Shown: piece after piece, positions 1,197 to 63,376 of the stretch | Layout of the letters: each line of letters opens with the position of its first letter | Numbering within the stretch: the first letter of the stretch is position 1 | Translations under genes and position numbers: made by a program | The notes under the pieces: generated by a model | What the model was told of the DNA's origin: nothing | The model's input: the letters and a program-made list of their open reading frames with translations, nothing else | The model's database searches: none | IMG/VR virus record: IMGVR_UViG_3300025065_000001 | Span: 16,545-80,544 of that record | Source of the DNA: a virus | Strand: one strand, 5' to 3' | Length of the DNA: 64,000 nucleotides

Positions 1197-1238
1197 TTCG
1201 GAAGATTCAAACCGCAAATAAAAATTTGGAGATTGACG

Positions 1239-2444
1239 ATGCAAGCAGCAAATCTTAGTCAGATTAAACGCGCCCCACTTAACGTGGTTTTAGCGGGTAT
1301 TAATAGTGAGCACAGCGACGAATCTATTCGCGCTGGCGTAAAGCTGGTACAAGCAGCAAAACAATACGGTATTAACGTTCGTGATTACCTAAACCTAGCA
1401 GTTGACGTTCGTGCGTCGAATGATGAAAAGGCTGGTAAAAACTTCCGTTTGGATAACGGTAACTTTATGACCGGCTACCAAGCCGCTATCGTAGAGTTGA
1501 ACCTTCCGTTCAAAAACGCTTTTGAGCAAGGCATTACCCTTCAAGCTGCAGCGGATACTTTCAGTGCACGCCCAGGCTCTCGCGCACTTTTCCCAGAAGT
1601 TATCGATGATATGCTTCAGTGGAATACGCGCCAAGATATGTTCGAATCAACGGCCCCTATGGTGGCGCAAACCCGAACTATCACTGGTAATGAACTTATT
1701 ACCACCGCAATTTTTGACGACCAAGGCCAGCTAAATACTTCGCCTATCGCGGAACTTGCGAACATTCCGATGCAGACTATCAAAAGCTCTGATAAGTCGG
1801 TTAAGTTCTTCAAACATGGTTCTGGTATCCGTACCTCATACGAATTCGAACGTCGTGTGAGCTTAGATATTCTTACCCCATATGCTGCCCGTATAGCGCG
1901 TAACAAAGAAATCAGCAAAGTGAAGATGGCTACCTCGCTATTGATCAATGGTGATGGTGTTCACGAAGCTGCAGAAGTGGTTCCAGCTTCTAATTATAAA
2001 GATTGGGATGCGGCTAAAGGCCTTAAAGGTAACTATGTTGCCTTAGCGGACTTCTTGGCGCAACGTGCGCGTAAAGGCGTACCGGTTGATACTATCGTAG
2101 GTAACTACGATATGTGGCTAGAACTGTTCCTAATGTTCTTACCAACTCAACCTAACGGTAAGTCTACCTCTGAAATTCTTCAGGAGAACGGTGGTCCTCG
2201 CGTGGCTCTGGCCATGGACTTCTTAAGCGGTGTCAACTTCCATATTTCAAGCTCAGCCCCTACGGGTAAGCTGATTTGTTATTCGAAGGCTGACACGCTG
2301 GAAGAACTTATCGAAGCCGGTTCTGTACTGTCTGAGTCTGAGACAGCAATCAAGAACCAGTCGATTACTTACGTGAAAACTGAGAACTCAGGCTATCGCC
2401 TAGTTTACGGTGATACTCGCGTAATCTTCGATACCACGGCCTAA
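1239..2444 (+). CDS. Major capsid protein
   Basis: A 401-residue protein follows protease, scaffold and decoration genes. Features fitting an E-like/HK97-fold capsid subunit are the AALFPEVI-like SRALFPEVIDDML segment, an FKHGSGIRTSYEFERRVSLDILTPYAARIAR segment (in two halves), and a C-terminal VYGDTRVIFDT. I place the start at ATG 1239 rather than TTG 1233, because GGAG at 1228-1231 is then 7 bases away. The start box (GGAGATTGACGAT, 1228-1240) overlaps the ribosome site and start codon. Its one change from consensus (A to G) still allows a G-U pair with the sRNA at 13191-13269. Confidence 0.85.
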   Translation: MQAANLSQIKRAPLNVVLAGINSEHSDESIRAGVKLVQAAKQYGINVRDYLNLAVDVRASNDEKAGKNFRLDNGNFMTGYQAAIVELNLPFKNAFEQGITLQAAADTFSARPGSRALFPEVIDDMLQWNTRQDMFESTAPMVAQTRTITGNELITTAIFDDQGQLNTSPIAELANIPMQTIKSSDKSVKFFKHGSGIRTSYEFERRVSLDILTPYAARIARNKEISKVKMATSLLINGDGVHEAAEVVPASNYKDWDAAKGLKGNYVALADFLAQRARKGVPVDTIVGNYDMWLELFLMFLPTQPNGKSTSEILQENGGPRVALAMDFLSGVNFHISSSAPTGKLICYSKADTLEELIEAGSVLSESETAIKNQSITYVKTENSGYRLVYGDTRVIFDTTA

Positions 2445-5783: not shown

Positions 5784-5838
5784 GTTTCATCCTCCTTCAG
5801 CAAGGTATCAATAATAACCTAAAATTTGGAGATTGACG

Positions 5839-6669
5839 ATGGCTGGTGAAGCTAAAACAACTGATTTTATGTTGGGTACTGCCACTGTAATGATTGGTAA
5901 CCCAGAAGACCTCTACAAACTAAACCCAGAACAACATTCTGTGGGCCTAGTTAAGAATTTCACAATCGAAGCAACCAAGGAACGTTCTGACCTTACCCAA
6001 GGCCGAACTAACGATGTTGTTTTCACACTAACAACCGGTGCCACGACTCGAGGCACATTCGAAATGTATGAATACACCGAAAAGAACCTTGCTTACGCGT
6101 TAGGTCTAGACGGTGGGGAGTTGGTATCTCCTGAAGGTGATGCTCACGTAGTTAAGACTTCTGCTTCTTTCTCAGCCGGTTCGGTTACTCTAGCTCTCAA
6201 TGATGGTACAGGACAGGATATTGAGGTAGGTAGTTGGGTTAGTGTTCGCGACCCTATTTCAGAAAATATTGTTTTAGGTACCGTAAAAACTACTTCAGGA
6301 CTAACGGATGGTACAGCAGCAACCGCTACTATCGAAGTAGAAGTCCCTGACAGCACTATGGCTTGGGAAGTTCCGGCTGGCGCATATGTATCCCTAGTAA
6401 CGGTACTTGATGTGGGCTCAACGGATGTTGACCGAGACTTTGCCGCTAAGGTTCAAGGCCAGCTAGCTAACGGTAAGTGGATCACACTTCTTATTCCTAA
6501 GATGCGTGTTTCTTCAGGTCTTACTATGGCATTTGGTACCGACAACTTCGGTAATACACCGTTTGAGTTTACGCCACTTAAAGTTACACCTTCCGATACT
6601 TACTATGCACCTTTCAAAGGTACCTCTGGTAAGTTAGTTCATGACTCAGTACAAAGCGCATTGTCGTAA
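5839..6669 (+). CDS. Major tail tube protein
   Basis: A 276-residue beta-rich protein between the tail terminator and the tail chaperone genes, the place of the major tail protein (lambda V-like). It contains MLGTATVMIGNPEDLY near the N terminus and repeated beta segments, and an extra Ig-like or insertion part is possible near residues 95-190. ATG 5839 is preferred over TTG 5833, because GGAG is at 5828-5831. The start box at 5828-5840 has the same G-variant as the capsid box. A terminator follows at 6696-6719. Confidence 0.78.
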   Translation: MAGEAKTTDFMLGTATVMIGNPEDLYKLNPEQHSVGLVKNFTIEATKERSDLTQGRTNDVVFTLTTGATTRGTFEMYEYTEKNLAYALGLDGGELVSPEGDAHVVKTSASFSAGSVTLALNDGTGQDIEVGSWVSVRDPISENIVLGTVKTTSGLTDGTAATATIEVEVPDSTMAWEVPAGAYVSLVTVLDVGSTDVDRDFAAKVQGQLANGKWITLLIPKMRVSSGLTMAFGTDNFGNTPFEFTPLKVTPSDTYYAPFKGTSGKLVHDSVQSALS

Positions 6670-6719: not shown

Positions 6720-6732
6720 AAGGAAATTGACG

Positions 6733-7080
6733 ATGAGTGATAACCCTCCTGTAACCTTTACTATCAGCGTTAACGACGAAGATAAAGAAGTTTTCATGAG
6801 TTTTGCGCTACTCAATACCATCACAGGGTATTTTAGAACTGCGGATGAACTCGAACAAATCTTACTAAATCCAGACGTTCGGGCGAGTGTCATTACTGAA
6901 CTCCTATCTGAAAGAAATGAGACGGGCCGAATAACCCAGAATTTCGATATTAATACAATGAAGGCAGACCCAGACCAAATACTGGACTTGCTGGAATGGG
7001 TATCGGAGCACGTTGAGACTTTTTTTATGAAGGCTCTACAAAGAGCCAAGCAACGAATGAAGAAGAAGCAGACCACTTAG
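6733..7080 (+). CDS. Tail assembly chaperone, G-like product
   Basis: A 115-residue protein in the position of lambda G, just before the tape measure gene. The first part is beta-rich and the end is a basic helix (KALQRAKQRMKKKQTT). It is made without frameshifting. ATG 6733 follows GGAAATTGACG directly, so the box at 6722-6734 covers the ribosome site and start codon. See the T7 slippery run at 7020-7026 for the longer product. Confidence 0.75.
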   Translation: MSDNPPVTFTISVNDEDKEVFMSFALLNTITGYFRTADELEQILLNPDVRASVITELLSERNETGRITQNFDINTMKADPDQILDLLEWVSEHVETFFMKALQRAKQRMKKKQTT

Positions 7081-7391: not shown

Positions 7392-7410
7392 CAATTAGGG
7401 GAAATTGACG

Positions 7411-10400
7411 ATGGCCGGCAGCACTGCATCCAATACAATTAGAAATACCTTACTTAATTTTACCGTCGATCCTAAATCCAAAAAGGTAATCGAGGAACTA
7501 ACTCGCGAGTTTGAAAAGCTAGAGCGGGTCACACAAGCCGCGAGTCAACAACTTCAAGCCAACATTAAGGCCATTAAGGACACCCCACAGGGGCGCTCTG
7601 AACTCGCCCAGAACGCTAAGAATGAAGTTAACACCCAACGCAAAATCTTAAGTGAGAACCAAAAGAATGCGCGTGCGTTACTAGATCAAATTGCCTTAAC
7701 CCTTGGGAAGGGACTTAACCCTCAACAGCAACAGCAGTTAGTGAAAGGTTTGAATCAAGCCTTTGGGGAAATTACAGGTCGCTTCACTAAACAGGCGCAA
7801 GCGCAAGCCAAGAAACAAGCAAAGGACCTTGCTGATTATTACGATCTTCAATTTCGTAAAAACCCCACCGTCCCAAAAGGTAGCCAGCTCTATAAATCTA
7901 GAGTAAACGCGTTAAACGAAAGTGAATTGCGCACAGGTATTCAAAGGCAAAAGCTTTTACGTAGTGGAGCCCAAAGTGCGCTTAACGATGCTATTCGTCT
8001 GGGGGATGTTAGCCTTGAGAAGAAAGCTCAAAGTGCACTTAAGAAACTTGAATCGGGTTTAGTCGCTGCAGAAGCACGACTAAAGAAGTTTACCGAGGCT
8101 TCTAAAAAAGCAGAAGTAGCACAAGACACCCAAGCTAGAACCGTAAGACGAACCCTTAAATCCTACAATGATGATGAGTTTCGATTAAACCCTACCGTAG
8201 CTAAAGGGCAAAAGGTTAAAGCGTCTCAAATCTCTACGTTGAACAGAACTCAACTAGAGGACGCTATTGCTCGGAATAAAGTTTACGAGAATGCTGCCCG
8301 TAAAGCGTTGAAGTCCAGTCTGGCGCCGGAGACGAGAAATAAAACGCTAGAGAATAACGCGGGTAAAGCGCTAAGAGAGCTTGAAGAATCAACCAAGCTT
8401 GCCAAAGCACGTTTAAAAGAATTCGCTGATGCTGCGGCCGAGGCCAAACGCGCTGAAAAAGCCGCACAGAAAGCCCAGCGACCTTCGACACAAGTGACCG
8501 AACAACAGCGTGTAGCTCGTCGTATTGAACAGATTAGACAATCTCAAACCAATCAGCGCTTAGATGGCGGAGCCCAGCTATTCAGAAACCAAGGGCAATT
8601 ACTTCGTAACTACGCTGTGATGGGCGCCGGTGTTGGTGGCCTTGCAACGTCCGCGACTTTCTCAACAGAGTTAGATAGACAGTTCAAACAACTACAATCC
8701 ATTGTGAACCTCACCAATGAGGAAATGGAAGAGCTATCTAAAAACCTTATTGATGTTTCGGAGAAAACTAAGTTTACAGCCACGGACGTAGCGGATGCGG
8801 CCATAACGCTTGGTCAGGCTGGCTTAGGTCAAAATGATATCCAAAATGCGATAGAGGGCGTTACGCTCTTTGCTACAGCGGTAGGTTCGGACTTAAAAAG
8901 TGCCGTTGACCTAGCCACATCAACATTAGGGGTATTTAATAAAGACAGTTCGCAGATGACCAACATCGTAGACAAAATGACTACGGCTGTGAACAGCTCC
9001 AAATTGAACCTAGATAAACTCGCCTTAGGTCTTCAGTACTCGGGTAACTTAGCGGCCCAGTCGAATGTGACTTTTGAAGAAACGGTCTCCGCACTTGGCG
9101 CAATGGCTAACTCGGGTATCCGAGCGGGTTCGACACTTGGTACCGGCCTTCGACAAATTATTATATCCCTGCAGAAACCGTCAGAGTCTTTTACCGAGAT
9201 TGTACACAACCTCGGGCTCTCAATGTCTGACCTAGATATTACGACTCACGGTTTAATACCGGTAATGAAAACACTGGCCGAGAGTGGCTTTACTGTCCGT
9301 GATGCTATGGAAAGTATGGAAGTACGTGCAGCATCCGCATACGGAGCGTTTGCAAACAACATTAGCGTAGCGGAAGACTTAAGCGAACAAATGCGTATTG
9401 GGGGTTCTGCGGCCCGTGCGAACGACACGCAGATGGAAGCCTTAGCTAACCAGCTAGACCGTTTAGGCTCTATCAGTAAATCGATTGTATATGAGTCAAT
9501 GGAGCCACTACTAGACACTATTACCAAGCTTACTGAAAAGACCGCTGACTTTCTTTCAGTGGTAAGAGACCTCGGGCCAATTTTAAGCGCTTTAGCAGTA
9601 CCAGCTTCCATACTAGGGGGCGTACTGGCCACAAGAAGCGTTCTTCGTCTGGGAGCGGGGTTACTTGGCGGCGTCGATATGCTAACCGGAGGAAAAGGTA
9701 AAGGTAGCACAATCTCTAGGCTTGCTAAGGTTGCCACTGGTAGAGGATTAGGTACGGCTGCGGGGTTCGCCGCTCGTGCAATACCTGGGGTTGGGCTTGC
9801 TACTGCCGTAGGTACCGCAGGGGTTTATGGGTACCAGTACCTCGATGGCCGAGCCCGAGCTAATGATCGTGTTGATAGTACGCAAGCGGCCTTAAACCGT
9901 GGTACCTCTGAAACTAAGGTTTATGAAGACCAGCTTAAGAAAGTTGGGTCGGCTATCGATACGCTTATCTTAAAGCAAAATGACCTTACAAATAACGAGT
10001 CCCTTCAGCGCGAGATACGTCGTCTTAACGATGAGTTTCGTCAGCAAGGGTTGTACATCGATGATTCGATAGACAGCTACGACAAGCTTATTACCAAGAT
10101 GAAGGAGTTTGAGGACGCTACTCGTGATGGGGTGGGGTACCTTCAAACCCAAAACCGAAATAACTTTGTTGATAACTCTGAGGCTAAATTAAATGAGCTG
10201 TTTTCAATCGGCTTTTTCGATTCATCTGAGCGCAGACTATTAGCCCAAGAGAAGGGAACGGATGTTAGCGTTGGTAGCGGTAAAACCGCGACCCAACGAG
10301 GCCGCTTTGCCAGCCGAGGAAATGTTTATAGAAGTCTGATAGATACCGCGCTGCCGAATTTCGGGGATGATCTTGCGAGTATCAACGAGCTTATCCGCAA

Positions 10401-12732: not shown

Positions 12733-13118
12733 TGTCGTTGGAACAATTTAATTTTATTTACCATAAGGTCTCTCACCGCTATAGGGACCGGTCAACTAAA
12801 CTCTCATTAGGTAATCAATGGGATTATGTAACTAAACCTACAGCGCCCGTTAGTCGGATATTCACACTTAAATATTCAGTAATGAAATATTTTGAAAATC
12901 CCCAGCTTCTAGGGCCAAAGGAAAGACGTTATAGTGCAGATCATTTGGATGAGTTTTACCAACGTCACGAAACATGGAAAGAATTCCTTTTCCAACATCA
13001 TAAGTTTGGTAATGTTGTTGTTCGATTTGACCAAGCGCTAGAGTTACCAGAAGGGATTACTGGCGGAGACGGGGCGATAGAACCCTTTACGGTAGTGTTG
13101 CGTGAGGTAGCACTTTAA
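12732..13118 (+). CDS. Minor tail protein, M-like
   Basis: A 128-residue protein between the tape measure and the L-like gene, the site of lambda M. Its start overlaps the tape measure stop (TAATG). It would belong to the tail tip complex. The protein has aromatic and basic residues typical of tip proteins, but no named motif. The sRNA locus follows directly. Confidence 0.55.
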   Translation: MSLEQFNFIYHKVSHRYRDRSTKLSLGNQWDYVTKPTAPVSRIFTLKYSVMKYFENPQLLGPKERRYSADHLDEFYQRHETWKEFLFQHHKFGNVVVRFDQALELPEGITGGDGAIEPFTVVLREVAL

Positions 13119-13155: not shown

Positions 13156-13184
13156 TTGACAATAAAATTGTGTGTCCGTAATAT
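13156..13184 (+). promoter_or_regulatory. Sigma70-type promoter of the putative sRNA
   Basis: The -35 is a perfect TTGACA (13156-13161), the spacer is exactly 17 bases, and the -10 is TAATAT (13179-13184), with AT-rich sequence upstream. It is the best promoter I can see in the window and lies inside an otherwise co-directional late tail operon. Transcription would start near 13191. Nothing about the core suggests dependence on a phage activator, so it may be active in the lysogen. Confidence 0.82.
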
Positions 13185-13190
13185 TGACCT

Positions 13191-13269
13191 CGGTTAGTAG
13201 TCCAAGTGGCTCCTAATTATCGTCAATTTCCAAATCAACGCCTCAGCCTTGCTGGGGTGTTCTGTTTTT
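13191..13269 (+). ncRNA. Putative trans-acting phage sRNA complementary to the start boxes
   Basis: The locus is about 79 nt, from the predicted start to the U-rich end. A 5' hairpin comes first: 13194-13197 pairs with 13213-13216, and 13199-13202 with 13208-13211, with a 5-base loop. Next is an unpaired region whose ATCGTCAATTTCC (13219-13231) is the exact reverse complement of the start box; complementarity reaches 17 bases (13219-13235) against the excisionase, ligase and DUF3560 gene starts. A terminator hairpin ends it. No convincing coding frame fits the interval. Stem, free seed, terminator with U tail is the standard layout of Hfq/ProQ-class sRNAs. Pairing would cover ribosome site and start codon, so repression is the simplest prediction. 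Expression is not shown by sequence. Confidence 0.72.
13239..13269 (+). terminator. Rho-independent terminator of the sRNA
   Basis: CGCCTCAG (13239-13246) pairs with CTGGGGTG (13252-13259), including two G-U pairs, around the loop CCTTG. TTCTGTTTTT follows. The bases 13237-13242 can alternatively pair with GGCGTT at 13271-13276, which would break this hairpin. Termination may therefore be partial or switchable, feeding the downstream L-like gene. Confidence 0.68.
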
Positions 13270-13338
13270 GGGCGTTTGAAAAATATTCAATCTATTCCTC
13301 TTTTCGGTATACTAAGCGAAAATTGAGGGAAATTGACG

Positions 13339-13827
13339 ATGAAAGAACTTTCACAAGAAATTCAGTCTCAACGGCATTCGCTGACCCCTGAAGACTTAAC
13401 CACCTATCTAGAACTCATTATCGAAGACCCTGATGGTCAGCCGGTTATCATTCGTCTTACGGATAGAGAAACCCGTGAGTGGAAAGGTACCACATGGGTG
13501 CATTCTCCTTTTAAAGTGACTGGGGTTGGAAACAAATCCAGCGGTGAGAAAAATCGTCCTAGTTTATCCCTCCCCAATGAAGGGGGGCTTTATAGTTACT
13601 ACTTGAACCAAGGTCTTTTAGAGGACTCCGTGGTAACCCGTTATAAAGCTCTCCCGCATGAGAAGGGGGGAACCCTCACTTCCAAACACGTATTTTATGT
13701 TTCACATGCCAGTAATATCAGTGCCTCTATCCTAACTCTTCAGTTGCGAAGGCTTTCTGACGGTAACAAAACAAAATTCCCACCCCGCAGATATGTGCAG
13801 CCAGAGTTTAGAACGGTAATCGTATGA
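13339..13827 (+). CDS. Minor tail protein, L-like
   Basis: A 162-residue protein in the L position. It ends with LSDGNKTKFPPRRYVQPEFR, close to the conserved DGN...FPPRRY part of lambda-L-like proteins. Lambda L is longer and ends in an iron-sulphur domain with four cysteines; that domain is absent here, as there are no cysteines. It helps build the tail tip. ATG 13339 carries the box at 13328-13340. The same transcript can hold the anti-box at 13219-13231, so this gene could also be controlled in cis. Confidence 0.72.
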   Translation: MKELSQEIQSQRHSLTPEDLTTYLELIIEDPDGQPVIIRLTDRETREWKGTTWVHSPFKVTGVGNKSSGEKNRPSLSLPNEGGLYSYYLNQGLLEDSVVTRYKALPHEKGGTLTSKHVFYVSHASNISASILTLQLRRLSDGNKTKFPPRRYVQPEFRTVIV

Positions 13828-30937: not shown

Positions 30938-30962
30938 ATCGTCAATTTCCAAATTTTAAAAG

Positions 30963-33435: not shown

Positions 33436-34460
33436 TATTCCGCCTCCGCGCTTAGGTCCATAAACTGGCCCCAAAGTTGATTCGTAGTTTCAGTTGAAAC
33501 GTCGTGTTCCGCCATTGTCGATTTGAAGATGCCTTCTAAGTCGAAGCTATCGAGGTTAACTTCCAGTTCGTCGTCTTTATTTTCCGACACGCGTTTGAAA
33601 GTCAGGCTCAAACAATCCACTTCGGCAATCGGGGCCTCCGTTGGTAGAAGCGTGATTCGAAGGTTCATGTTTTTGAACTTATCAGGGTCAGCTTCTAAGG
33701 CCGTGGTTGCTTCTTGAAGAGAGAGCGTTATGTAGAGCTGGTTATTTGGGTCCTCGGCATGCGAGTAGGGTTGCATAGAGCCGGTAACCCAGACTGGCGT
33801 ATCACCTTCCATAAAAATACGGGGTGTATGATAGTGGCCAGTGATAACCGCAAGTGCGGTTTGCATTTCTTCAAACGGGATCAAGTTATCTGTCGCTGAG
33901 CTATCTTCACTAAAAGCAAGAATGTCCCAATGGCCAAAGGCGAAGAACCCTACCGGTGGCTTAATCTCGGCAGCAATTTCTTTCGCAGTTTTAAAGGGGT
34001 GCCACGGGTAGAAAACAAAATGCTCTTTCTCAATGGTTAGGTAAAGGGCCTTTTCTGCAACTACGTGAATATTTGGCACATGAGCCACAAGCTGTGTAAA
34101 TACATCAAACGAGCTCTTGAACTGGGTGTCCCTCGAGGCATCATGGTTGCCGCGAATTATCACGAACTGACGGTCACGGTAAGTGCTGGCCGCGAGACGA
34201 TAAACGTCGGCCGCAAATAAAATATCTTCTTCAGGAACGCGAAACTTATCAAACAAGTCTCCCATACAAACGTGAAGCTTATACCCTGGCGCATTTACAA
34301 TGCCGGCAAAGGTATCTTTCACCATTTCTTCGCGCTCACCTTTGCGGTGTGTAGGCACGCCAGTATTGAATTTACGTGCTAGGTGAGGGTCACCTAACGT
34401 CTGAACAAAAGAGGGGAGTTTAATTAAATCGTTTAGCGATTCGATTGGTAACATTTGCAT
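33435..34460 (-). CDS. SbcD/Mre11-like nuclease subunit
   Basis: A 341-residue metallophosphoesterase. Motifs in order: GDPHLA, GDLFDK, RGNHDAS, FGHWD, GHYHTP, which supply the metal ligands of the Mre11/SbcD nuclease. It acts with the SbcC-like gene downstream. ATG 34460 has a perfect box at 34459-34471. A hairpin at 34483-34501 lies just upstream. Confidence 0.9.
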   Translation of the reverse strand: MQMLPIESLNDLIKLPSFVQTLGDPHLARKFNTGVPTHRKGEREEMVKDTFAGIVNAPGYKLHVCMGDLFDKFRVPEEDILFAADVYRLAASTYRDRQFVIIRGNHDASRDTQFKSSFDVFTQLVAHVPNIHVVAEKALYLTIEKEHFVFYPWHPFKTAKEIAAEIKPPVGFFAFGHWDILAFSEDSSATDNLIPFEEMQTALAVITGHYHTPRIFMEGDTPVWVTGSMQPYSHAEDPNNQLYITLSLQEATTALEADPDKFKNMNLRITLLPTEAPIAEVDCLSLTFKRVSENKDDELEVNLDSFDLEGIFKSTMAEHDVSTETTNQLWGQFMDLSAEAE

Positions 34461-34470
34461 CGTCAATTTC

Positions 34471-34845
34471 CTAAATAATAATTGAGGGGACTTGGCCCTC
34501 AGTAAAGTTAACTCTAATTTTCCAGTTTAAATCTGGGCTAAAATACGGCCAGTATTCGAGTACAAATCTTTTAATATCTGGATAGACACTAACAGCGTGT
34601 CCCAGCACAGCAAAGCATAAAACTCGGTAAGCCGCATTAGGGTTCCTAAGTTCATTGAAGTCCTCAAACTCTTCGGATTCTTCATCTGGTTCCCAAGGTT
34701 GAACAATTCGGGGTAAAAAGTTCTGGTCTGTTATATGTCCTCTTCGCCACAACAAAACCAGCTTTGCCAGCCTAGCATTCCTCCAAATTAAAGTATTAAT
34801 TTCAGTTTCAGCGTGTAAGGCCCATCCACAAGTAACCTCAAGCAT
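34471..34845 (-). CDS. Unknown phage protein
   Basis: A 124-residue protein starting MLEVTCGWALHAETEINTL, with an acidic middle (PDEESEEFEDFNEL) and aromatic end. I chose ATG 34845, because GGAGAT is 8 bases upstream, straddling the stop of the nuclease gene. No family recognised. The neighbours suggest a role in DNA processing. Confidence 0.6.
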   Translation of the reverse strand: MLEVTCGWALHAETEINTLIWRNARLAKLVLLWRRGHITDQNFLPRIVQPWEPDEESEEFEDFNELRNPNAAYRVLCFAVLGHAVSVYPDIKRFVLEYWPYFSPDLNWKIRVNFTEGQVPSIII

Positions 34846-34849
34846 AGGT

Positions 34850-35257
34850 TTATCTCCACGTAAATTGAAACTGCGTGAGTTCTTCAAAACGCATAGACTT
34901 CTTAGGCCAGCTTAGAATTAGGGATGCTGGTACTTTAAACCAGCCATCAATACTTATGAAATGGAGGTAGAAATAGTAGAGGCCCCCAGCTTTGGTTACC
35001 TTGGTTGCTTCGCGCCATTGACGTTTCTCAATTCGAGAGAAATCAAAGCGTGAACTTTCAGCAATACTTTTTACTTCCGCGTAGGCCGTTAAACCTTTTT
35101 CGGTAACAAGATAGTCTGAGGGTTTTGATGAAACGATACGTTTGCGAACGCGAGACTTGTTTACATCAGCATGGTCTTCGAAGCGATATACATGAGCGCC
35201 CAGCGCTTTCATATTCTCTTCGAAGATATCTTCGGAGGGTTTACCAGTGTTTTGCAT
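34850..35257 (-). CDS. PD-(D/E)XK nuclease-like, possible Holliday junction resolvase
   Basis: A 135-residue protein with SKPSDYLVTEKG followed by AYAEVKSI, the Asp...Glu-x-Lys core of PD-(D/E)XK nucleases, then SRIEKRQW as the trailing helix. Size and context (next to SbcCD, near polymerase) fit a RecU/Hjc-like resolvase for replication intermediates. ATG 35257 has a perfect box at 35256-35268. Substrate is inference. Confidence 0.72.
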   Translation of the reverse strand: MQNTGKPSEDIFEENMKALGAHVYRFEDHADVNKSRVRKRIVSSKPSDYLVTEKGLTAYAEVKSIAESSRFDFSRIEKRQWREATKVTKAGGLYYFYLHFISIDGWFKVPASLILSWPKKSMRFEELTQFQFTWR

Positions 35258-35282
35258 CGTCAATTTCCTAATTGTATAAAAC

Positions 35283-35789
35283 TTATTTTGTTTTATTTAG
35301 AGTTAATACTCTTTTAGGTTTATCACCTTTATCATCTGATGTTGACTGGCGTGTGCCGCGTCCCACTTTCTGATTTATGATAATCCCTTGCTTCTTGTTC
35401 TTACGTCGAGAGCGTAAGTACATAGAATGTAGTTCAACCATTCTCTTACGAGCATGGTCTGCTTCGGATTCGGTTACTCTACCGTCAGGCTTTCCCCAGA
35501 GGTTAAAGCGCTGGGCACCAGTACGAATACGATTGAGGTATTTTATAGAATTAACGTGAAAGCCTATCGCATCGTATAGTTCTCTTGAGCTGACTTTCTT
35601 AGGAGAAATAACCGCACGAAGTTGCTCATAAATATCCCTACTTAACGGTTTGTTAGTTAAGATTCGGAATTTATTTTTACGACAATAGGTGACCACCCAA
35701 AGCCAGCAATGGATAGGTTTTTCAAATTGTAATTTTTTAGAATTATATTTAAGGCTTACACCTTCAATTCCAAAAGTGGCGTTATCCAT
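35283..35789 (-). CDS. ProQ/FinO-family RNA chaperone
   Basis: A 168-residue protein. Residues about 25-125 match the ProQ/FinO domain in order: KPLSRDIYEQL, SSRELYDAIGFHVNSIKYLNRI, the TGAQRFNLWGKPDGRVTESE block and ADHARKRMVEL. In E. coli ProQ the matching parts include PLKIGIFQDLV, GATRVDLDGNPCGEL and HVEHARKQL. The C-terminal 45 residues are basic and probably disordered. ProQ/FinO proteins bind the terminator hairpins of sRNAs and promote pairing with mRNAs. In this genome the obvious partner is the sRNA at 13191-13269. ATG 35789 lacks a strong ribosome site. Its box is decayed (GAATTGACGAG, without the GG), so it may escape the control it helps impose. Confidence 0.85.
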   Translation of the reverse strand: MDNATFGIEGVSLKYNSKKLQFEKPIHCWLWVVTYCRKNKFRILTNKPLSRDIYEQLRAVISPKKVSSRELYDAIGFHVNSIKYLNRIRTGAQRFNLWGKPDGRVTESEADHARKRMVELHSMYLRSRRKNKKQGIIINQKVGRGTRQSTSDDKGDKPKRVLTLNKTK

Positions 35790-39437: not shown

Positions 39438-40046
39438 TCAAAGTTTACTTAGGTCTGCAGGGGTGTAATCAACAGACTTAAGCACTTTGCCAGCAGCATA
39501 GCTTTTACCATCTTTATCGGTACTCTCTTTTTTGACCTTAACGGCCCAGAGCGCGGTACCTTCATTTTTATTTTTATTGGTAAGTTTTACAGGTTTTGCT
39601 TCAACACTAACACCCAAGGTGGTGTAGTGGTCGAGTGTCGCTTGCACGTTATCATCGTTACATAGCTTACTCATATTCGAGTGATGGACAATATCCCAAG
39701 CTTTTAGGATATCGAAGTTTATTTCTTCGGAAGCCGATAGAAGTGTTTCTATGATGTTTAGTTCCCAAGCAGGCATGTGATTTAGGGTATGGTAGGACTG
39801 AACATACTTACCAAACAACACATATAGACTATCTACAATAGCATCTATTTTATCTACTCGGGTTTCTGCGCTGAAAAGCTCACGCATTTCCTCGCGGTAG
39901 AGGTCGAAGTGTAAGTTTAAAGATTCCGTGGTGAATCCAACATCAATAGGTAAGTCAAAAGCGGTTCTAAAATCTACAATATTCGCAAAGAACTTCTCGA
40001 AAATTTCAGCCGTTAAAAAGTTATATTTAATACCATGAAGTAGCAT
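39438..40046 (-). CDS. MazG/HisE-like all-alpha NTP pyrophosphohydrolase
   Basis: A 202-residue protein with the two acidic helices of the family (LYREEMRELFSAET then KIDAIVDSLYVLFGKYVQ) and, further on, KAWDIVHHSNMSKL and GKVLKSVDYTPADL, typical of phage members. It probably hydrolyses nucleoside triphosphates to monophosphates, shaping nucleotide pools. ATG 40046 has a perfect box at 40045-40057. Confidence 0.72.
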   Translation of the reverse strand: MLLHGIKYNFLTAEIFEKFFANIVDFRTAFDLPIDVGFTTESLNLHFDLYREEMRELFSAETRVDKIDAIVDSLYVLFGKYVQSYHTLNHMPAWELNIIETLLSASEEINFDILKAWDIVHHSNMSKLCNDDNVQATLDHYTTLGVSVEAKPVKLTNKNKNEGTALWAVKVKKESTDKDGKSYAAGKVLKSVDYTPADLSKL

Positions 40047-40135
40047 CGTCAATTTCCTTTAATTTTTAAGTATGAGACCAGCATTATAAAAAGTAATCAA
40101 GTGAGTTGCTGGCAAACTAACTGGATTTTTATTAA

Positions 40136-44082: not shown

Positions 44083-44508
44083 TTACTGCCACTCTTGGTC
44101 TTCTTCTTCAGAAGACCTCACAGGTATAGCCGATTCATCAAACAACTTGCCTAACTCGGCCATAACGCGCTGTATGCCGCCTTCATTATGTTTTGCTGCA
44201 AAGTATGCGTCTTTAAGTGCAATAACTTGTTTGGGATTAAGATACCCTAGCTCGGCAAGAGCTATCTGCACCCCTTGGTCATGTAATTTAACGATTCGTC
44301 TTGATATCTCTTGGAATACTGAGTAGTTCTCTGAGGATATACTCGACTGCTCAATAATATCTTTATTGAATTGGGTTTTTACCCTAACGGTATTTTCATA
44401 GTCTTTAGGTTCTACAACCAGAGGCCTACCAACTTCCGGCATTGGTGTACCTGAACTTGCTTCTGGTAAAACTTCATCAACTTTTTGCATTGGTGGAACA
44501 AATGGCAT
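44083..44508 (-). CDS. Unknown protein upstream of the polymerase
   Basis: A 141-residue protein, polar at both ends (acidic SSEEEDQEWQ at the C terminus) with a helical middle (VFQEISRRIVKLHDQGVQIA). It ends directly at the polymerase start. ATG 44508 has a box with the G-variant (GGAGATTGACGAT). A polymerase accessory role is possible from position only. Confidence 0.6.
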   Translation of the reverse strand: MPFVPPMQKVDEVLPEASSGTPMPEVGRPLVVEPKDYENTVRVKTQFNKDIIEQSSISSENYSVFQEISRRIVKLHDQGVQIALAELGYLNPKQVIALKDAYFAAKHNEGGIQRVMAELGKLFDESAIPVRSSEEEDQEWQ

Positions 44509-44519
44509 CGTCAATCTCC

Positions 44520-45407
44520 TTACTCTTCGTTATTCAAATTAAACGCCGCTTTAAGGTCCAGCGCTAACGATAGAAGTGCACTGGCTCCGAGATAGATTTC
44601 TGAATCGAGACGCGCTTCCTGTTGGTCCTTAGGAATATCGTCGCTTTCTTCAATCAAGCGGTCTGAATACTTGATACGCTTAACAGAACCATCTTCACAG
44701 AGCATAGCGGTCAATTGGTCGTCATAACTGACAGCAAGTTTCTGAACGAGCTTGCCTGAGTCTAAACACAGTTGAATTTCTTCTGAGTCGAGTTCTTGAT
44801 TTTTTGCACGGATAACCGCTTTGGTCTCATCTGTGGCTTGAAGCTCAGTCTCTTCGAGCAATTCAAATTTGTCAGGGTGGCCATTAACAATCCAGCTTGT
44901 TAGGTCTGAAGCGAGAGACCGTCTTGCGAATGGAACTACGGGTAAACTACCTAGCGCTTTACGAAGTACCGCAAGGAAGATTTCGGCCTCACCATCTGAA
45001 GAGGCATTCACTAACACTAGTTTATGCTCTGGGATGATTGTGCCAATAGTTGAGGTTTGGTCTGTGAACGCACGCGGCGTTAGGTGCGTAACTATTTCTT
45101 CTTTTAAGTCTTGACGCTGTTTTTTCCCAACCGGTGATCCCGTTTCCGCTTCAACAAGCTTAACTTTTTCTTCTAACTCACGGTTGATAACTCGCGCAGG
45201 GAGTATCTTGCTTTCTTTCAAAAGCTTAACCGTGTAAATACCTTGAACCTCATGAGCCAGTAAAGAACCAATGATAGGTGCAAAACCTAGAGAGGCTAGG
45301 GTATGTGAACCGCAAGGGTGGAAGGGGATTGCCTCTAGCGCTGGCACTAGGTTAGACAAGTCTACATTTTGAGTGAGTGAATAAATCTTTGCGTTTTTAA
45401 AATACAT
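44520..45407 (-). CDS. rdgC: RdgC-like recombination-associated protein
   Basis: A 295-residue protein matching RdgC along its length: MYFKNAKIYSLT start, AHEVQGIYTVKLLKESKILPARVINRELEEKV (in pieces), GSPVGKKQRQDLKEEI, HLTPRAFTDQTS, LRKALGSLPVVPF, IQLCLDSGKLVQKLAVSYDD. RdgC forms a DNA-encircling dimer that limits RecA filament activity. In a phage it may protect replicating DNA or tune recombination and induction. ATG 45407 has a perfect box. Confidence 0.88.
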   Translation of the reverse strand: MYFKNAKIYSLTQNVDLSNLVPALEAIPFHPCGSHTLASLGFAPIIGSLLAHEVQGIYTVKLLKESKILPARVINRELEEKVKLVEAETGSPVGKKQRQDLKEEIVTHLTPRAFTDQTSTIGTIIPEHKLVLVNASSDGEAEIFLAVLRKALGSLPVVPFARRSLASDLTSWIVNGHPDKFELLEETELQATDETKAVIRAKNQELDSEEIQLCLDSGKLVQKLAVSYDDQLTAMLCEDGSVKRIKYSDRLIEESDDIPKDQQEARLDSEIYLGASALLSLALDLKAAFNLNNEE

Positions 45408-45431
45408 CGTCAATTTCCTGTTTTTAGTTAG

Positions 45432-49757: not shown

Positions 49758-49777
49758 ATCGTCAATTTCCGAGAGTA

Positions 49778-49820: not shown

Positions 49821-50921
49821 TTATTGTGCTGCGATTTGGCCTTGTGCCGGACCAATCAGTTTGAATTCCAAGGTACCCCACTTGTAAGTGATACCTTTAG
49901 GAGCAACCGGTTGGTTAGACACTTCAACAATCACTTTCTGACCTAATAAACCAGCTTGCTTACACGCATTGTGGAAGTTCTGCCAGTTCTGCCATCCCGT
50001 CTTAGCCGTAGTATGACCAATCATAATACCTGCTTGGGCAATTACCGTGCCTTGTTGGTCAGCAATGTCGTTGATTAAACGCATTGGTAACTGAACACTT
50101 GGGAACGGTACGTTAGGTTTTTTCGGGTCTGTGGTGGTGTGGTAGGCTGTCATTACCGCATTCGCCCAAGGTTGACCATCTGAACCAATCAAACCATCGT
50201 ATGTGTGGACATAGTTGGTTTGATCACCTGTAGCCCCTGCTACGGTCCAGCGAACCATTTGGCACAACATATAGCCCACGTTCTCAGTCATATCAATCTC
50301 AACCTGGAAGGGGTTAAGAAGTGTTGACGGAGCACTACCTAAAACCATACCGTGGTAGCTTGGCTTCAGCCAATCTTGAACCAACAGGTCAGAGTTAGAC
50401 ATGGTATCCATCGACATTTCGCGCTGACCAATAAACTTAGCCAACTCTGGCGGTAAGTTCGCTGGTAGGTCCATGCCGGTGTTTCCAACTGGGTTCACAG
50501 CCATAGGCGTTTGCTGAACCTGAGCCGTTTGCTGAGCTTGAGCCGTTTGCTGCGATTGCTGGGCTTGCGCTGCTTGTTGTGCTTGTAACTGTTGTTGTAA
50601 GTGCTGTGGAATAGCACTTGTTTGCTGCGTATTAACCGGCGTGGTATTAGCTTGCTGGTTAACAACTTGGGGGTTAGCTTGGTTCGTGGTTTGTTGTGGT
50701 GTGGCTTCCGCAGTCTGAGTATAAGTCTCAGTCTGGTTAACAACCTGAGGGTTAGCTTGAGCCTGTGTAGCTTGCTGCTGCGTAGTCTCGGCTTGAGCGG
50801 TGTTAGCTTGCTGGTAGTCTTGACCTACGGCTTGCTGGGTAACTTGAGTTTCTTGCTGAGTAGTAGCGGCTTGAGCTGCGTTATTTTGAGCAGCGGCGAT
50901 CATTTGTTCGATATTGTTCAT
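49821..50921 (-). CDS. Q/N/T/A-rich low-complexity replication-region protein
   Basis: A 366-residue protein. Residues 1 to about 160 are almost entirely Q, A, T, N, V and P, with QANPQVVNQ occurring twice and runs such as QQQLQAQQAAQAQQ, a prion-like disordered region. Residues about 160-366 look folded and beta-rich (GYMLCQMVRWTVAGAT, GTVIAQAGIMIGHT). Between helicase and exonuclease genes, with its own terminator, it may be the single-strand DNA-binding or scaffold protein, but I see no OB-fold proof. ATG 50921 has a perfect box. Confidence 0.65.
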   Translation of the reverse strand: MNNIEQMIAAAQNNAAQAATTQQETQVTQQAVGQDYQQANTAQAETTQQQATQAQANPQVVNQTETYTQTAEATPQQTTNQANPQVVNQQANTTPVNTQQTSAIPQHLQQQLQAQQAAQAQQSQQTAQAQQTAQVQQTPMAVNPVGNTGMDLPANLPPELAKFIGQREMSMDTMSNSDLLVQDWLKPSYHGMVLGSAPSTLLNPFQVEIDMTENVGYMLCQMVRWTVAGATGDQTNYVHTYDGLIGSDGQPWANAVMTAYHTTTDPKKPNVPFPSVQLPMRLINDIADQQGTVIAQAGIMIGHTTAKTGWQNWQNFHNACKQAGLLGQKVIVEVSNQPVAPKGITYKWGTLEFKLIGPAQGQIAAQ

Positions 50922-51054
50922 CGTCAATTTCCTGATTGTAGATTAATTACATTTTGATTAATTACTGTTTGTGCGGCTTTCGCCCTTCGCTTTTCTCCGA
51001 AGTCCAGCTATAGCGCAGTTTAATGCGGTATAGATGGTAACCTTAGCTTATTAA

Positions 51055-53227: not shown

Positions 53228-53920
53228 TTATGCTACTTTGTCAAACGAACGGGTACCTTTGCAGTACTCGGATAATACGTAACTTCCCAAGTGTTCTAGG
53301 GGCAAGCTGATTAAATCTCTTAGTGGTATAAGTTTACTAAGATTCGTTTCTAAACGCTGAACGTGCTTTGGAAGCACAATTGAAGAGTCACCACAAAAGA
53401 TAACCGTTCTTGGAGACGTCTTTGCAGCCGTAGCCAGCTTTATCACGGATTCGTTGTCTGTGTTCTTTAAATCAACAAACACCATTGGGTGAATGTTTGT
53501 TTTATCAATATGTTTGATAGCGTGGTTCATGCCCACAACGAACAAAGGCTTTACCCACGTATGAAGTGGAGAGTTCAACCGTTCTAAACACGCAAGCCAT
53601 ACCGCAGCATCTGGAAGTTGTTCTTCGTCTAGGAAGTAAGTTTTTCCATTAGGTATTGGTAACATAGCTTGAACGAGCGGGTCGGCTATAAGGTTGTTGA
53701 ACTTACTTAAGTGGACCTTACTTAGCTTACGTGTAGCTAAATTCACATTGATATTATGTGAGCACTGGTTTCTCAGTGGTTTAACCGTAAGATTTGATTT
53801 GGTGCTTAGGCCTATAAAGTTCCAGCCATAGGGACAAGTATCTTGGTAGATATAGCTAACACCCTCGTCCTCGTGAATACCATAGTGCCCAAGGGGGGTG
53901 GGTTTTTTTTGCTGTTGCAT
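53228..53920 (-). CDS. Unknown early-region protein
   Basis: A 230-residue protein. The C-terminal half alternates strands and helices (HPMVFVDLKNTDNESVIKL, RTVIFCGDSSIVLPKHV), as in a Rossmann-like or ATPase-related fold, but no P-loop is present. ATG 53920 has a perfect box. Function unknown. Confidence 0.55.
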   Translation of the reverse strand: MQQQKKPTPLGHYGIHEDEGVSYIYQDTCPYGWNFIGLSTKSNLTVKPLRNQCSHNINVNLATRKLSKVHLSKFNNLIADPLVQAMLPIPNGKTYFLDEEQLPDAAVWLACLERLNSPLHTWVKPLFVVGMNHAIKHIDKTNIHPMVFVDLKNTDNESVIKLATAAKTSPRTVIFCGDSSIVLPKHVQRLETNLSKLIPLRDLISLPLEHLGSYVLSEYCKGTRSFDKVA

Positions 53921-53946
53921 CGTCAATTTCCTGATTGTCTGAGTAA

Positions 53947-56309: not shown

Positions 56310-56539
56310 ATCGTCAATTTCCAAATTTTAAAGTTAAGCCAGTAGGCAAAGTTAAAACTACGCTTTCAACTTTTGTATATCAAGTTAAAAACGAAGTCCG
56401 TCTACAAAAACACAATTTATTTGTGTTTTTAATATTTATTAAAAAAATATGCTTTCTTTAATTTATTTAATTGGTTAGAATTTGTTCGTTTTGTTTTGTA
56501 GTAAAAGATTTACATTATGGCCTTGATGGAGTACTCGCC
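56310..56539. promoter_or_regulatory. Divergent control region between ligase and HTH regulator
   Basis: About 230 AT-rich bases between leftward and rightward units. A perfect inverted repeat AAAAACACAA-TTTAT-TTGTGTTTTT lies at 56406-56430 and is a likely operator. AAAGTT and AACTTT face each other at 56348-56373, and AAGTTAAAA recurs. A possible leftward promoter is TTGATA with 17-base spacing to a poor TAGTTT (56355-56383). I could not find a convincing rightward promoter. Confidence 0.55.
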
Positions 56540-56860
56540 GTGTCTAAGAAAATTGACGATAATATAGAACCACCATGGGAGCTAGAGCGCCGTAGGCGAA
56601 TAGCTCGAAAATTTAAAAATATGCGCCAGAATTATCGATTGACGCAAGAAGAACTCGCTATTGCTGCGGACGTTCACAAGAATACTATTTCAAATGCTGA
56701 GCGATACGGCAAAATCTCCACTGAAGAATTCTACAAATATCAACAAATTGCAAAACGCGCTCACATGAAGAAGGGACTCGGTGCGGTAGTGAGTAAAATT
56801 ACCTTATCGGATATCCCATTCTCGGATTTTAAAAGATTCTTAGCGACGTTTTGGGAGTAA
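56540..56860 (+). CDS. HTH regulator, candidate lysogeny repressor
   Basis: A 106-residue protein with a helix-turn-helix at about residues 36-58 (RLTQEELAIAADVHKNTISNA) and a C-terminal helical part. It lacks the peptidase domain of LexA/CI repressors, so RecA-driven self-cleavage is unlikely. I place the start at GTG 56540 with GGAG 8 bases upstream. The box core AAATTGACGATAAT lies within codons 4-8 (14 contiguous bases complementary to the sRNA), so its mRNA may also be a target. It would be transcribed against the long leftward region, as expected for a repressor. Confidence 0.72.
   Translation: MSKKIDDNIEPPWELERRRRIARKFKNMRQNYRLTQEELAIAADVHKNTISNAERYGKISTEEFYKYQQIAKRAHMKKGLGAVVSKITLSDIPFSDFKRFLATFWE
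56550..56560 (+). promoter_or_regulatory. Start-box core inside the repressor coding sequence
   Basis: AAATTGACGAT lies 10-20 bases after the GTG start, within reach of sRNAs that block initiation (up to about codon 5). It encodes K-I-D-D here. The same amino-acid string appears in the long-start readings of several box genes, but in this gene it is real coding sequence. Confidence 0.5.
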
Positions 56861-57899: not shown

Positions 57900-57950
57900 G
57901 TGATATACGAGGCGAAATGTTGCCTAACTGCGGCAACATTTCGATATCAC
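57900..57950 (-). repeat. Long two-part RNA hairpin
   Basis: GTGATAT (57900-57906) pairs with ATATCAC (57944-57950), and CGAAATGTTGCC (57913-57924) with GGCAACATTTCG (57932-57943). A six-base bulge lies on one side and a seven-base loop at the tip. It abuts the stop of the gene at 57950-58789. There is no T-run, so it may protect the 3' end or be a processed structured RNA. Confidence 0.62.
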
Positions 57951-58789
57951 TATAACAGTATTGGTAGTTCTGTTGCCAGTTCCCGACGTTTTAGCAGTGG
58001 GACTTGGTTTTTTATCCAAGTCTTAATTTTTTGAATCCGACTGCCAGCACGCTCTTTTTTATGGTTCGCTACTATCGATAAAGCTTCTAATAACGCCCAT
58101 CCTTCACCGTCAGGGCCAACGTAACCCCAGCAAGAATCATCAATGTCGTGACCTTCGATAACATAACCATACACATCCCCTTCTAGATACGCTGCATAGG
58201 TTTTAACTTCGCTATCTAAGTATTCATAGACCTTTTGAATGCGTGCTTTTGTTAACCGCTTAAAACCATACTCTTCACGAGCTTTCTCTTTGGTAACGTA
58301 GATAAAACCGACTTGGCCAGAGTCCCAAGAACACGAGAAACCCCCTGTATTCATCGTTATTCCAGAATGGTCGTACAGGTAGAGTGGGAGGATGAGGTAG
58401 TATTTATCAAGTCGCGCTTCAATCTTCTTCTCAACCAGTTCTTGGTAATCTTTAGTCCCTTGGGCATCCCAATTTGTTGAAGGCCAGTTATGTTCTAGTC
58501 TTTCCAACATCGCCTCAAATCCTGGCTCAACTTCTTCTACCATACCGATACGATAGTCTTGGTAGCTTACTGAAGGTTGTTCGTCACCTAAATTGTATCT
58601 ACTATGCCAGCACACCATTGTGCCCACGTTATCCCACTCACGAGGGCTTTCAGCATCCCCATCACGCTCGATTTTAATTGTTATATCTTTTATCTGAGTT
58701 TCAGACTCACCAATTAAATCAAGGGTGTTAAAATCTAGGTTTAATTTCTGGCAGTTTGCCTTCAGTTGTTTTGATAGTTCAGGGTGCAT
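57950..58789 (-). CDS. Conserved phage protein of unknown function
   Basis: A 279-residue protein. The block YYLILPLYLYDHSGITMNTG, FSCSWDSGQVGFIYV, and TKEKAREEYGFKR is one I recognise from many phage hypothetical proteins, without a known function. A later EGDVYGYVIEG block belongs to the same family. ATG 58789 has the G-variant box at 58788-58800. A hairpin of the GGGGG-type lies upstream at 58818. Confidence 0.7.
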   Translation of the reverse strand: MHPELSKQLKANCQKLNLDFNTLDLIGESETQIKDITIKIERDGDAESPREWDNVGTMVCWHSRYNLGDEQPSVSYQDYRIGMVEEVEPGFEAMLERLEHNWPSTNWDAQGTKDYQELVEKKIEARLDKYYLILPLYLYDHSGITMNTGGFSCSWDSGQVGFIYVTKEKAREEYGFKRLTKARIQKVYEYLDSEVKTYAAYLEGDVYGYVIEGHDIDDSCWGYVGPDGEGWALLEALSIVANHKKERAGSRIQKIKTWIKNQVPLLKRRELATELPILL

Positions 58790-58817
58790 CGTCAATCTCC
58801 AACAAGTTAATTTCAAG

Positions 58818-58846: not shown

Positions 58847-59197
58847 TTAAATTTCGCAACTGGGCTGGGCGTCATGCCAAGCTTCAAAAACGCGTAAACG
58901 AATCGCTTCAGGTATTTCTATCTTGTCCGCACAGCTCGTTATATATGAGACTGCTCTCATGTTTTCAGTGAACACGAACAAGGTAGGCTTCAACGAGTTT
59001 CGAGCTCTAGACGCTGCCCCCATATCAATATTGTTATCAATAAAAACCACTTGGGGGTCTATTTCATTGAGGTGAGCTTCAATGAACTCTTTCAGGCTAG
59101 GGTTAATCAAGCTCATGTAAGCTCGAACGCAATGGCCTATAAAAGCACTGTTGATCTCTTCAAGAATTGCTTTAGTGTCTGCGGTACTAATTTGCAT
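58847..59197 (-). CDS. Unknown protein
   Basis: A 116-residue alpha/beta protein (DPQVVFIDNNIDMGA, KPTLFVFTENMRAVSYI). ATG 59197 has a perfect box at 59196-59208. It overlaps the upstream gene by 11 bases. Function unknown. Confidence 0.58.
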   Translation of the reverse strand: MQISTADTKAILEEINSAFIGHCVRAYMSLINPSLKEFIEAHLNEIDPQVVFIDNNIDMGAASRARNSLKPTLFVFTENMRAVSYITSCADKIEIPEAIRLRVFEAWHDAQPSCEI

Positions 59198-59399
59198 CGT
59201 CAATTTCCTTCTGTGATCGAGTGAAGAACTCTTCACTCGTTAAATTACGGATATCTACAATTTGTTGTTGTAGTCTCTGTATGGCTTCGTTCTTAGCACG
59301 GTTTAGTGTTTTCTCCCCCGTCTCATAAGGTCGAGGAATAAAGTAACCAGCAAGAATTTCTTTTGTCCGAAGCAGGGTGCCTAGGTCTTTACCACTCAT
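59187..59399 (-). CDS. Unknown small protein
   Basis: A 70-residue protein (MSGKDLGTLLRTKEILAGYF...). Its ATG 59399 overlaps the upstream TGA (ATGA). Function unknown. Confidence 0.52.
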   Translation of the reverse strand: MSGKDLGTLLRTKEILAGYFIPRPYETGEKTLNRAKNEAIQRLQQQIVDIRNLTSEEFFTRSQKEIDDAN

Positions 59400-59842
59400 T
59401 CGCTGTCCCATCCCCAGTTACGCGCTTCAGGGCAGACTTCTTCTCGGGTTACTGCACTGTCCGTGTAATTACTGAACCACTCAGATAAAGCCGTTTCGTC
59501 GAGTTCGGCTAACGTGTCCCACTCATAGACAGTGGTGCTTTCCTGCTCGAGGTAGAAACCGTTCTCTTTGATATACTCTTTGCAGTGTTCAATCCATTCG
59601 TCCCAGTCTGAAATCCAGTCCATTTCTTCAACATTAAGATACGCATTACCAAAAGGACGTCCGTTAGTATCATTGAAAGACTTTTTCCAAAACTCTTCAC
59701 TATCCCCGACGCCACCTTCTAATTCAGCAATCGTCGCTTTTAAAACACGAATAATCTCGCTCTTCATCTTAGTCGTGTCGTCGGTAGCCTCTCCTGCATG
59801 GGAGACTGATAATTCAAAATCAAAATTACTTATACGTGTCAT
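59396..59842 (-). CDS. Unknown acidic protein
   Basis: A 148-residue acidic protein rich in Trp and Glu (MDWISDWDEWIEHCKEYI, ARNWGWDSE). Charge and size fit a DNA-mimic or small inhibitor, but this is speculation. ATG 59842 has a perfect box at 59841-59853. Confidence 0.55.
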   Translation of the reverse strand: MTRISNFDFELSVSHAGEATDDTTKMKSEIIRVLKATIAELEGGVGDSEEFWKKSFNDTNGRPFGNAYLNVEEMDWISDWDEWIEHCKEYIKENGFYLEQESTTVYEWDTLAELDETALSEWFSNYTDSAVTREEVCPEARNWGWDSE

Positions 59843-59868
59843 CGTCAATTTCCAACAAGTTAATTAAA

Positions 59869-62090: not shown

Positions 62091-62125
62091 AATCGTCAAT
62101 TTCCAAATTGTAAAAGTTAATTGAA

Positions 62126-62148: not shown

Positions 62149-62253
62149 TTAAACGGCTGCAGCAATCGCTTTTGCTTCAGCCAGGACTTTTTCTTCTTCC
62201 GCAAGCTCTTGTTCCGCTAGGTCTTCATGCGGCCACCTGTTTAGTTCGGCCAT
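62149..62253 (-). CDS. Possible tiny acidic helical protein (34 aa)
   Basis: MAELNRWPHEDLAEQELAEE then EKVLAEAKAIAAAV, read from ATG 62253 inside the end of the upstream gene. It has no clear ribosome site, but composition is that of a real charged helix and the frame ends just before the hairpin. It could be the remnant of a longer gene. Confidence 0.3.
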   Translation of the reverse strand: MAELNRWPHEDLAEQELAEEEKVLAEAKAIAAAV

Positions 62254-63028: not shown

Positions 63029-63062
63029 ATCGTCAATTTCCAATTTTAAAAGTTAATTAAGA

Positions 63063-63086: not shown

Positions 63087-63365
63087 TTACGACTTTTCAG
63101 GTCGTTCGAACTTCTCACCACAATAGCAGCAATGGCTTGCTAGTATCGTTATTGAATCTTTCTTAAGATTCTTTTGCGGGGTACCGTCTCGCTTCATAGG
63201 CCGATACTCGTAGTCAATTTTAGGACTGGTTGGAGCATACTGACCTTCCGCAAGGATATAAGCTCGGCCCTGCCATTCGGCTTTAAATTCTTCCACGTTG
63301 TCCGGCAATTGCTCTTTAATATGCTCGGTTACTTTTTCCATCGTTTCTTCAAAACAATTACACAT
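63087..63365 (-). CDS. Small protein with C-terminal zinc-ribbon-like motif
   Basis: A 92-residue protein. CNCF at the start and SHCCYCGEKFERPEKS at the end suggest metal binding. ATG 63365 has a perfect box at 63364-63376. Function unknown. Confidence 0.58.
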   Translation of the reverse strand: MCNCFEETMEKVTEHIKEQLPDNVEEFKAEWQGRAYILAEGQYAPTSPKIDYEYRPMKRDGTPQKNLKKDSITILASHCCYCGEKFERPEKS

Positions 63366-63376
63366 CGTCAATTTCC

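Follow-up and report, generated by a model that had tools for sequence, protein, structure and literature searches.

The stretch of DNA considered here raises the question of whether one small RNA, encoded in a gap between two tail genes of a phage, is directed at the starts of a large part of the phage's own genes. The phage record comprises 80,544 bases and represents a temperate siphophage-like genome, with the genes for the major head protein, the tape-measure chaperone and the tape-measure protein on the + strand and those for the integrase, the ligase, DNA polymerase A, RdgC and the exonuclease on the - strand. The window, i.e., the whole stretch of DNA that was analysed, covers 64,000 nucleotides of this record, and the coordinates below refer to it unless stated otherwise. 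The 214-bp gap between the tail genes 12732-13118 and 13333-13827 holds a complete small-RNA unit, in the order promoter, 5' hairpin, unpaired seed stretch and terminator (13156-13269), all four of which were confirmed as the initial annotation had described them:

13156..13184, + strand: sigma70-type promoter TTGACA-17-TAATAT of the small RNA (-35 at 13156-13161, -10 at 13179-13184)
13191..13269, + strand: small RNA (predicted start about 13186-13192; end within the T run)
13192..13218, + strand: 5' hairpin of the small RNA, paired throughout across relatives, with two pairs alternating between G-C and G-U
13219..13231, + strand: seed ATCGTCAATTTCC, single-stranded, exact antisense of the box and co-varying with the boxes
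13237..13269, + strand: intrinsic terminator with a ProQ-type 3' end and a U-rich tail (11-bp hairpin stem at 13237-13261, then CTGTTTTT)

The promoter matches the consensus at 10 of 12 positions with a spacer of 17 nt, and a -35/-10 pair with the same spacing can be read by eye at the equivalent place in four other lineages. The RNA 13191-13269 folds at -22.7 kcal/mol (z = -3.4), better than all 200 shuffles, and the seed sits within 18 single-stranded nt flanked by the two hairpins, with an unpaired probability of 0.8-1.0. The terminator stem shows one compensatory change among relatives (C-G to U-A); since this is the only compensatory pair and the stem co-variation is not above shuffles, it is no main argument here. 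A search of Rfam with the small RNA gave no family at the gathering threshold (best chance match 14.2 bits vs 56), which speaks against a known RNA family. The unit carries the marks of trans-acting bacterial small RNAs, namely a predicted short intergenic transcript enclosed by its own promoter and terminator, which recurs in five lineages, an unpaired seed matching many distant target mRNAs, and co-variation of seed and targets. The small RNA is probably made.

The box, which is the reverse complement of the seed and reads GGA[A/G]ATTGACGAT, occurs 33 times in the 80.5-kb record, and 31 of these sites are at gene starts, against a background of 16% (p = 1e-22); one of the two others is the RNA locus itself. 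The boxes reported initially at about 25 gene starts do exist, the number being slightly low for the full record (26 exact boxes and 5 G-variants at gene starts). Of the 18 exact copies of GGAAATTGACGAT in the window, 17 mark gene starts, on either strand, and one lies in antisense at 13219-13231. The G variant GGAGATTGACGAT is found at four further gene starts of the window and, as had been claimed, keeps its pairing with the seed through a G-U pair. The sites are:

1228..1240, + strand: box GGAGATTGACGAT (G variant), start of the major head protein gene
5828..5840, + strand: box GGAGATTGACGAT (G variant), start of gene 5833-6669 (tail tube in the earlier annotation)
6722..6734, + strand: box, start of the tape-measure chaperone gene, immediately after a terminator
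7400..7412, + strand: box, start of the tape-measure gene
13328..13340, + strand: box, start of the tail gene adjoining the RNA
30938..30950, - strand: box, start of the gene preceding the integrase (probable excisionase)
34459..34471, - strand: box, start of the calcineurin-like (SbcD-like) nuclease gene
35256..35268, - strand: box, start of the RecU-like resolvase gene
40045..40057, - strand: box, start of gene 39438-40052
44507..44519, - strand: box GGAGATTGACGAT (G variant), start of gene 44083-44514
45406..45418, - strand: box, start of the RdgC gene
49758..49770, - strand: box, start of the 5'-3' exonuclease gene, immediately after a terminator
50920..50932, - strand: box, start of gene 49821-50927
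53919..53931, - strand: box, start of gene 53228-53926
56310..56322, - strand: box, start of the DNA ligase gene
58788..58800, - strand: box GGAGATTGACGAT (G variant), start of gene 57950-58816
59196..59208, - strand: box, start of gene 58847-59236
59841..59853, - strand: box, start of gene 59396-59848
62092..62104, - strand: box, start of the DUF3560 gene
63029..63041, - strand: box, start of gene 62225-63043
63364..63376, - strand: box, start of gene 63087-63371

When up to 3 mismatches are allowed, GGAAATTGACGAT has 51 sites in the window versus 19.8 +/- 5.0 in shuffles, and none of 100 shuffles reaches 51. A de novo count of start words, in which the seed was not used, also places the box at the top, with ATTGACGAT in 34 of 100 ORF starts. 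The contiguous matches of up to 17 bases proposed for the excisionase, ligase and DUF3560 genes were found again, the seed-box pairing read by eye extending over 17-18 nt at 30950, 56322 and 62104. One exact box, at 9388-9400 (-) of G000 and outside the window, has no obvious gene start after it.

Such a box could be nothing else than a strong ribosome-binding consensus with an accidental antisense copy, given that its GGA is normally spaced to ATG and that GGAG, as in the A4>G variant, makes a stronger Shine-Dalgarno as well. The box does double as the ribosome site in most genes, with GGA 8-11 nt before ATG. However, the start codon lies 11, 13 or 14 nt from the first base of the box, so that conservation does not stop at the Shine-Dalgarno but includes the T of GAT, also in genes with a later ATG; as this T is kept outside an ATG too, the box exceeds a Shine-Dalgarno plus start codon. 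Moreover, the chance of an antisense 13-mer within the 214-bp gap is about 3e-6 in one lineage, yet the arrangement recurs with a new sequence in five, and the relatives without the RNA have no such consensus. The probability left to this explanation is practically negligible, and both chance and a plain Shine-Dalgarno consensus are rejected.

In each of five phage lineages the equivalent tail-operon gap carries an RNA built in the same way, and each of the five seeds matches the box of its own genome (GGAAATTGACGAT, GGAAATCGACGAT, GGAATTGACGAT, GGATTGACGAT and GGATTGACAAT), these five seed-box codes amounting to few independent seed changes. Among close relatives, the gap with promoter, RNA and terminator is kept in nine contigs and the seed is invariant. 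G009 and G010 have the seed ATCGTCGATTTCC and boxes GGAAATCGACGAT or GGAAATTGACGAT. The Pseudoalteromonas phage KB12-38 (MF098558) has a major head protein 58% identical to that of the window phage; it is described as the only isolate of its subfamily-level cluster, and the passages of that source naming the phage hold no mention of a small RNA (PMC10232697). Its tail gap contains TTGACT-17-TACTAT, the seed ATTGTCAATCC and a strong terminator; the 5' stem takes up part of this seed, and the box at the gene starts of the phage is GGATTGA[C/T][A/G]AT. A second conserved element, TTAAACTAAAACT, is found 5-15 nt upstream of many KB12-38 boxes. In G015 (contig 3300019755_000002) the seed is ATCGTCAATCC and every box reads GGATTGA[C/T]GAT, and in G017 (contig 3300035698_018668) the seed is ATCGTCAATTCC and the box GGAATTGACGAT. 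The G017 box GGAATTGACG is the same as a universally conserved piece of 16S rRNA in the 907 primer region, perhaps by coincidence, the box core being GGA(A)nTTGACG. The A-tract is 3, 2 or 1 long across lineages and identical in seed and box, two single-base changes appear in both, and the table of box variants against genomes is close to diagonal. The comparison of relatives called for in the initial annotation thus shows seed and boxes changing together in five lineages. Searching viral contigs with the KB12-38 capsid gave no relatives, the tail-protein alignment no lineage beyond those already known, and the plasmid search only one remote match.

Under RNA pairing, a seed G is expected to allow C or T in the box, a seed A only T, a seed U A or G, and a seed C only G. 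Opposite a seed A, T was present in 31 of 31 boxes (G000), and the C-variant in none of the boxes of five seed-A genomes; opposite a seed G, G010 has 8 C and 17 T boxes, and in KB12-38 and G015 both bases likewise occur at the C/T position facing a seed G. Boxes facing the seed U of KB12-38 carry A in 8 cases and G in 5, and those facing the seed C of G015 carry G in 18 of 18. The association of box variation with the seed base is significant (Fisher p = 8e-4 and 2e-4). Base pairing between seed and box is well supported by these patterns, and variation that obeys the G-U pairing rules would not be the product of a DNA-binding protein. The box has nevertheless to be considered as a DNA operator or promoter element for a phage protein, the inverted copy in the tail gap being one more site, because the copies of a DNA site would likewise change together and the boxes lie on both genome strands. 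Against this, they are always sense-oriented, just before a start codon, and stand inside operons straight after terminators with no common promoter sequence, the sole antisense copy of the tail region lies in an RNA-like unit in five lineages, and the G-U rules are not expected of DNA recognition. We hold the operator to be most improbable, the wobble pattern disfavouring it as a reading of the box.

The window also encodes a protein that travels with the RNA and is absent from the initial annotation:

35283..35789, - strand: ProQ/FinO-domain protein of 168 aa, candidate RNA chaperone of the system

It matches Pfam PF04352 at 48.9 bits (cut-off 27), and its closest solved chain is the RNA chaperone ProQ, PDB 5nb9 (E=1.6e-6). 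The start of this gene shows only a degenerate box, TGAATTGACGA, before the ATG. A ProQ/FinO-domain gene is also present in KB12-38, G010, G015 and G017, and thus in every RNA-bearing record covering that region; G009 is without it, its alignment with G010 indicating that the contig probably ends before the locus. No such gene was found in the RNA-less relatives JWF, Lumi, Seuss, G012, G014 and G016 (0/6). Relatives keeping the box with no antisense locus, which had been named as a case against the RNA, did not appear: none of five RNA-less relatives from the same phage family (Achromobacter JWF, Xylophilus Lumi, G012, G014, G016) has a start box, and the de novo start-word search returned the box only in RNA-bearing phages. 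Searching viral contigs with the chaperone alone led to one new genome, G017, in which, as predicted beforehand, the same gap holds the RNA with a new seed and a matching box. The RNA-bearing phages probably form one branch, and the co-occurrence of RNA, box and ProQ gene may, as these lineages are related, be a single historical event. The hairpin and U tail of ProQ type in the small RNA, together with the co-occurrence of the two genes, suggest that the protein may serve as its chaperone.

Seed duplexes of -14 kcal/mol or better form at 36 of 100 gene starts and at 1 of 100 gene interiors, the number reached with shuffled seeds being 1.7 on average and 7 at most. The contrast is equivalent in the other lineages tested, though weak in G015 (29 starts vs 8 interiors, with shuffled seeds reaching up to 15), and the energies are at background in JWF, Lumi and G016; because the boxes share a core, energies compared across lineages discriminate only partly, and the table of exact variants is sharper. 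In KB12-38 the median upstream gap is 61.5 nt for boxed genes vs 2 nt for unboxed ones (p = 9e-7). The boxes mark the leading genes of translation units, early and late. Terminator-like hairpins immediately precede those at 6722, 49758-49770, 59841-59853 and 58788-58800; a hairpin thus closes many phage units and a box opens the next.

These data are in agreement with a phage-wide antisense brake on translation exerted by one small RNA, a reading to which we give a probability of roughly 78%. Host RNA polymerase would start at the unit's sigma70-type promoter and stop at its terminator, which would yield a trans-acting antisense RNA of about 80 nt. The exposed 13-nt seed of this RNA would pair with the box, from the Shine-Dalgarno GGA to the start codon, where most phage translation units open with their first gene (about 31 such places in the 80.5-kb record). 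Since the box covers this whole interval, the bound RNA would keep the 30S ribosome off, and a single RNA would brake the translation of about one third of the phage's genes, both early and late ones. Pairing is probably promoted by the phage ProQ/FinO-domain protein, with the terminator hairpin as its binding site. The simplest reading would be that pairing represses translation in most phage units, but the same RNA and pairing could have a positive effect, by protecting mRNA 5' ends from RNases or by loading ribosomes, as a 'self' mark in lytic growth. Co-variation and chaperone co-occurrence suit any pairing function, many boxes come right after terminator-like hairpins, where pairing could stabilise new 5' ends, and in a few cases a separate Shine-Dalgarno follows downstream of the box. 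At these boxes, 24-28 nt before the start codon with the Shine-Dalgarno between (27461 and 28894 in the window; 39384 and 71588 in KB12-38), start-site blocking is less direct and pairing may act differently. In most genes, however, the box is the ribosome site itself and a duplex would cover it, which makes a positive effect improbable.

The sigma70-type promoter, independent of phage factors, suggests that the RNA is present in the lysogen. Since this promoter looks constitutive, the brake would most likely hold lytic genes down in the lysogen, and it would be outrun once lytic mRNA is abundant. Its stage of action, lysogeny or lytic timing, is the part on which another view has to be weighed, in which the RNA, arising by transcription or processing along with the late tail operon, is mainly a lytic scheduler that shuts early genes and balances structural proteins. 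The RNA gene does lie inside the late tail operon, from which read-through would also yield the RNA, and the box occurs in early and late genes alike. However, the RNA has its own sigma70-type promoter in all lineages and, the late genes being boxed too, a brake made late would hit the genes being expressed; we find the scheduler rather doubtful. A helix-turn-helix gene at 56540-56860 (+; likely GTG start at 56540), possibly the lysogeny repressor, contains AAAATTGACGAT inside codons 4-8, conserved in G006, and the seed could pair there as well.

Taken together, the way these sequences have evolved suggests that about 30 genes are addressed by a single RNA of the same genome, the targets being re-coded in step in each lineage. 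If the translational brake is real, the RNA would be a counterpart of T4 RegA and a new means of keeping an entire prophage in check or setting its timing; exchanging seeds should then exchange the target sets, and incoming phages should be silenced by a resident prophage only when their boxes match. The phage ProQ/FinO proteins are linked to a specific candidate RNA partner, and the five seed-box codes found in nature provide orthogonal pairs without further design. On a wider proposal, a phage-wide RNA regulon in which one RNA, one box and a ProQ/FinO chaperone would govern about one third of the genes and the drift of seed and box would create heteroimmunity groups, our opinion is evenly balanced. 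The type of mechanism is known, and its scale and dedicated-regulon design appear to be new.

To our knowledge, the known phage antisense RNAs have one or two targets each. Like P4 CI RNA, which is a phage immunity antisense RNA, and like c4 and sar, the present RNA is an antisense RNA encoded by a phage, with a probable role in lysogeny; the targets of those three are one or two mRNAs, leader or anti-repressor, whereas about one third of all genes would be addressed here, and the small RNA gives no sequence match in Rfam. The pointers to the class of phage immunity antisense RNAs are only the sigma70-type promoter and the integrase gene. Both c4 (P1/P7) and sar (P22) limit phage gene expression in lysogeny, and seed differences between the c4 RNAs of P1 and P7 give heteroimmunity (PMC12197685). 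A review of phage small RNAs describes single-target or host-directed cases, plus VpdS, which uses host Hfq (PMC12197685); in the open-licence literature we found no phage RNA with a genome-wide set of own targets, although a report that we did not see may exist. VpdS of vibriophage VP882 and PreS of lambda are trans-acting phage small RNAs, VpdS affecting phage and host mRNAs; both need host Hfq, whereas the phage studied here encodes its own ProQ/FinO-domain protein, and the review describes for them no shared box at phage gene starts, the visible targets here being the phage's own genes (PMC12197685). FinO-FinP of F-like plasmids and other FinO-domain systems are found on mobile elements (PMC9977716), and the likeness lies in a mobile element that combines a FinO/ProQ-family chaperone with an antisense RNA ending in a terminator hairpin; FinP targets one mRNA, traJ (PMC9977716), and the partnership of chaperone and RNA is a candidate one here. 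In T4, the protein RegA and the ribosome compete for translation initiation regions on about 30 mRNAs of the phage (PMC3014915), so that in both cases one phage factor would be set against ribosomes at some 30 phage mRNAs, the brake being a proposed one here. RegA is, however, a protein without a clear shared target sequence (PMC3014915), whereas the factor proposed here is an RNA with a 13-nt box that co-evolves with it.
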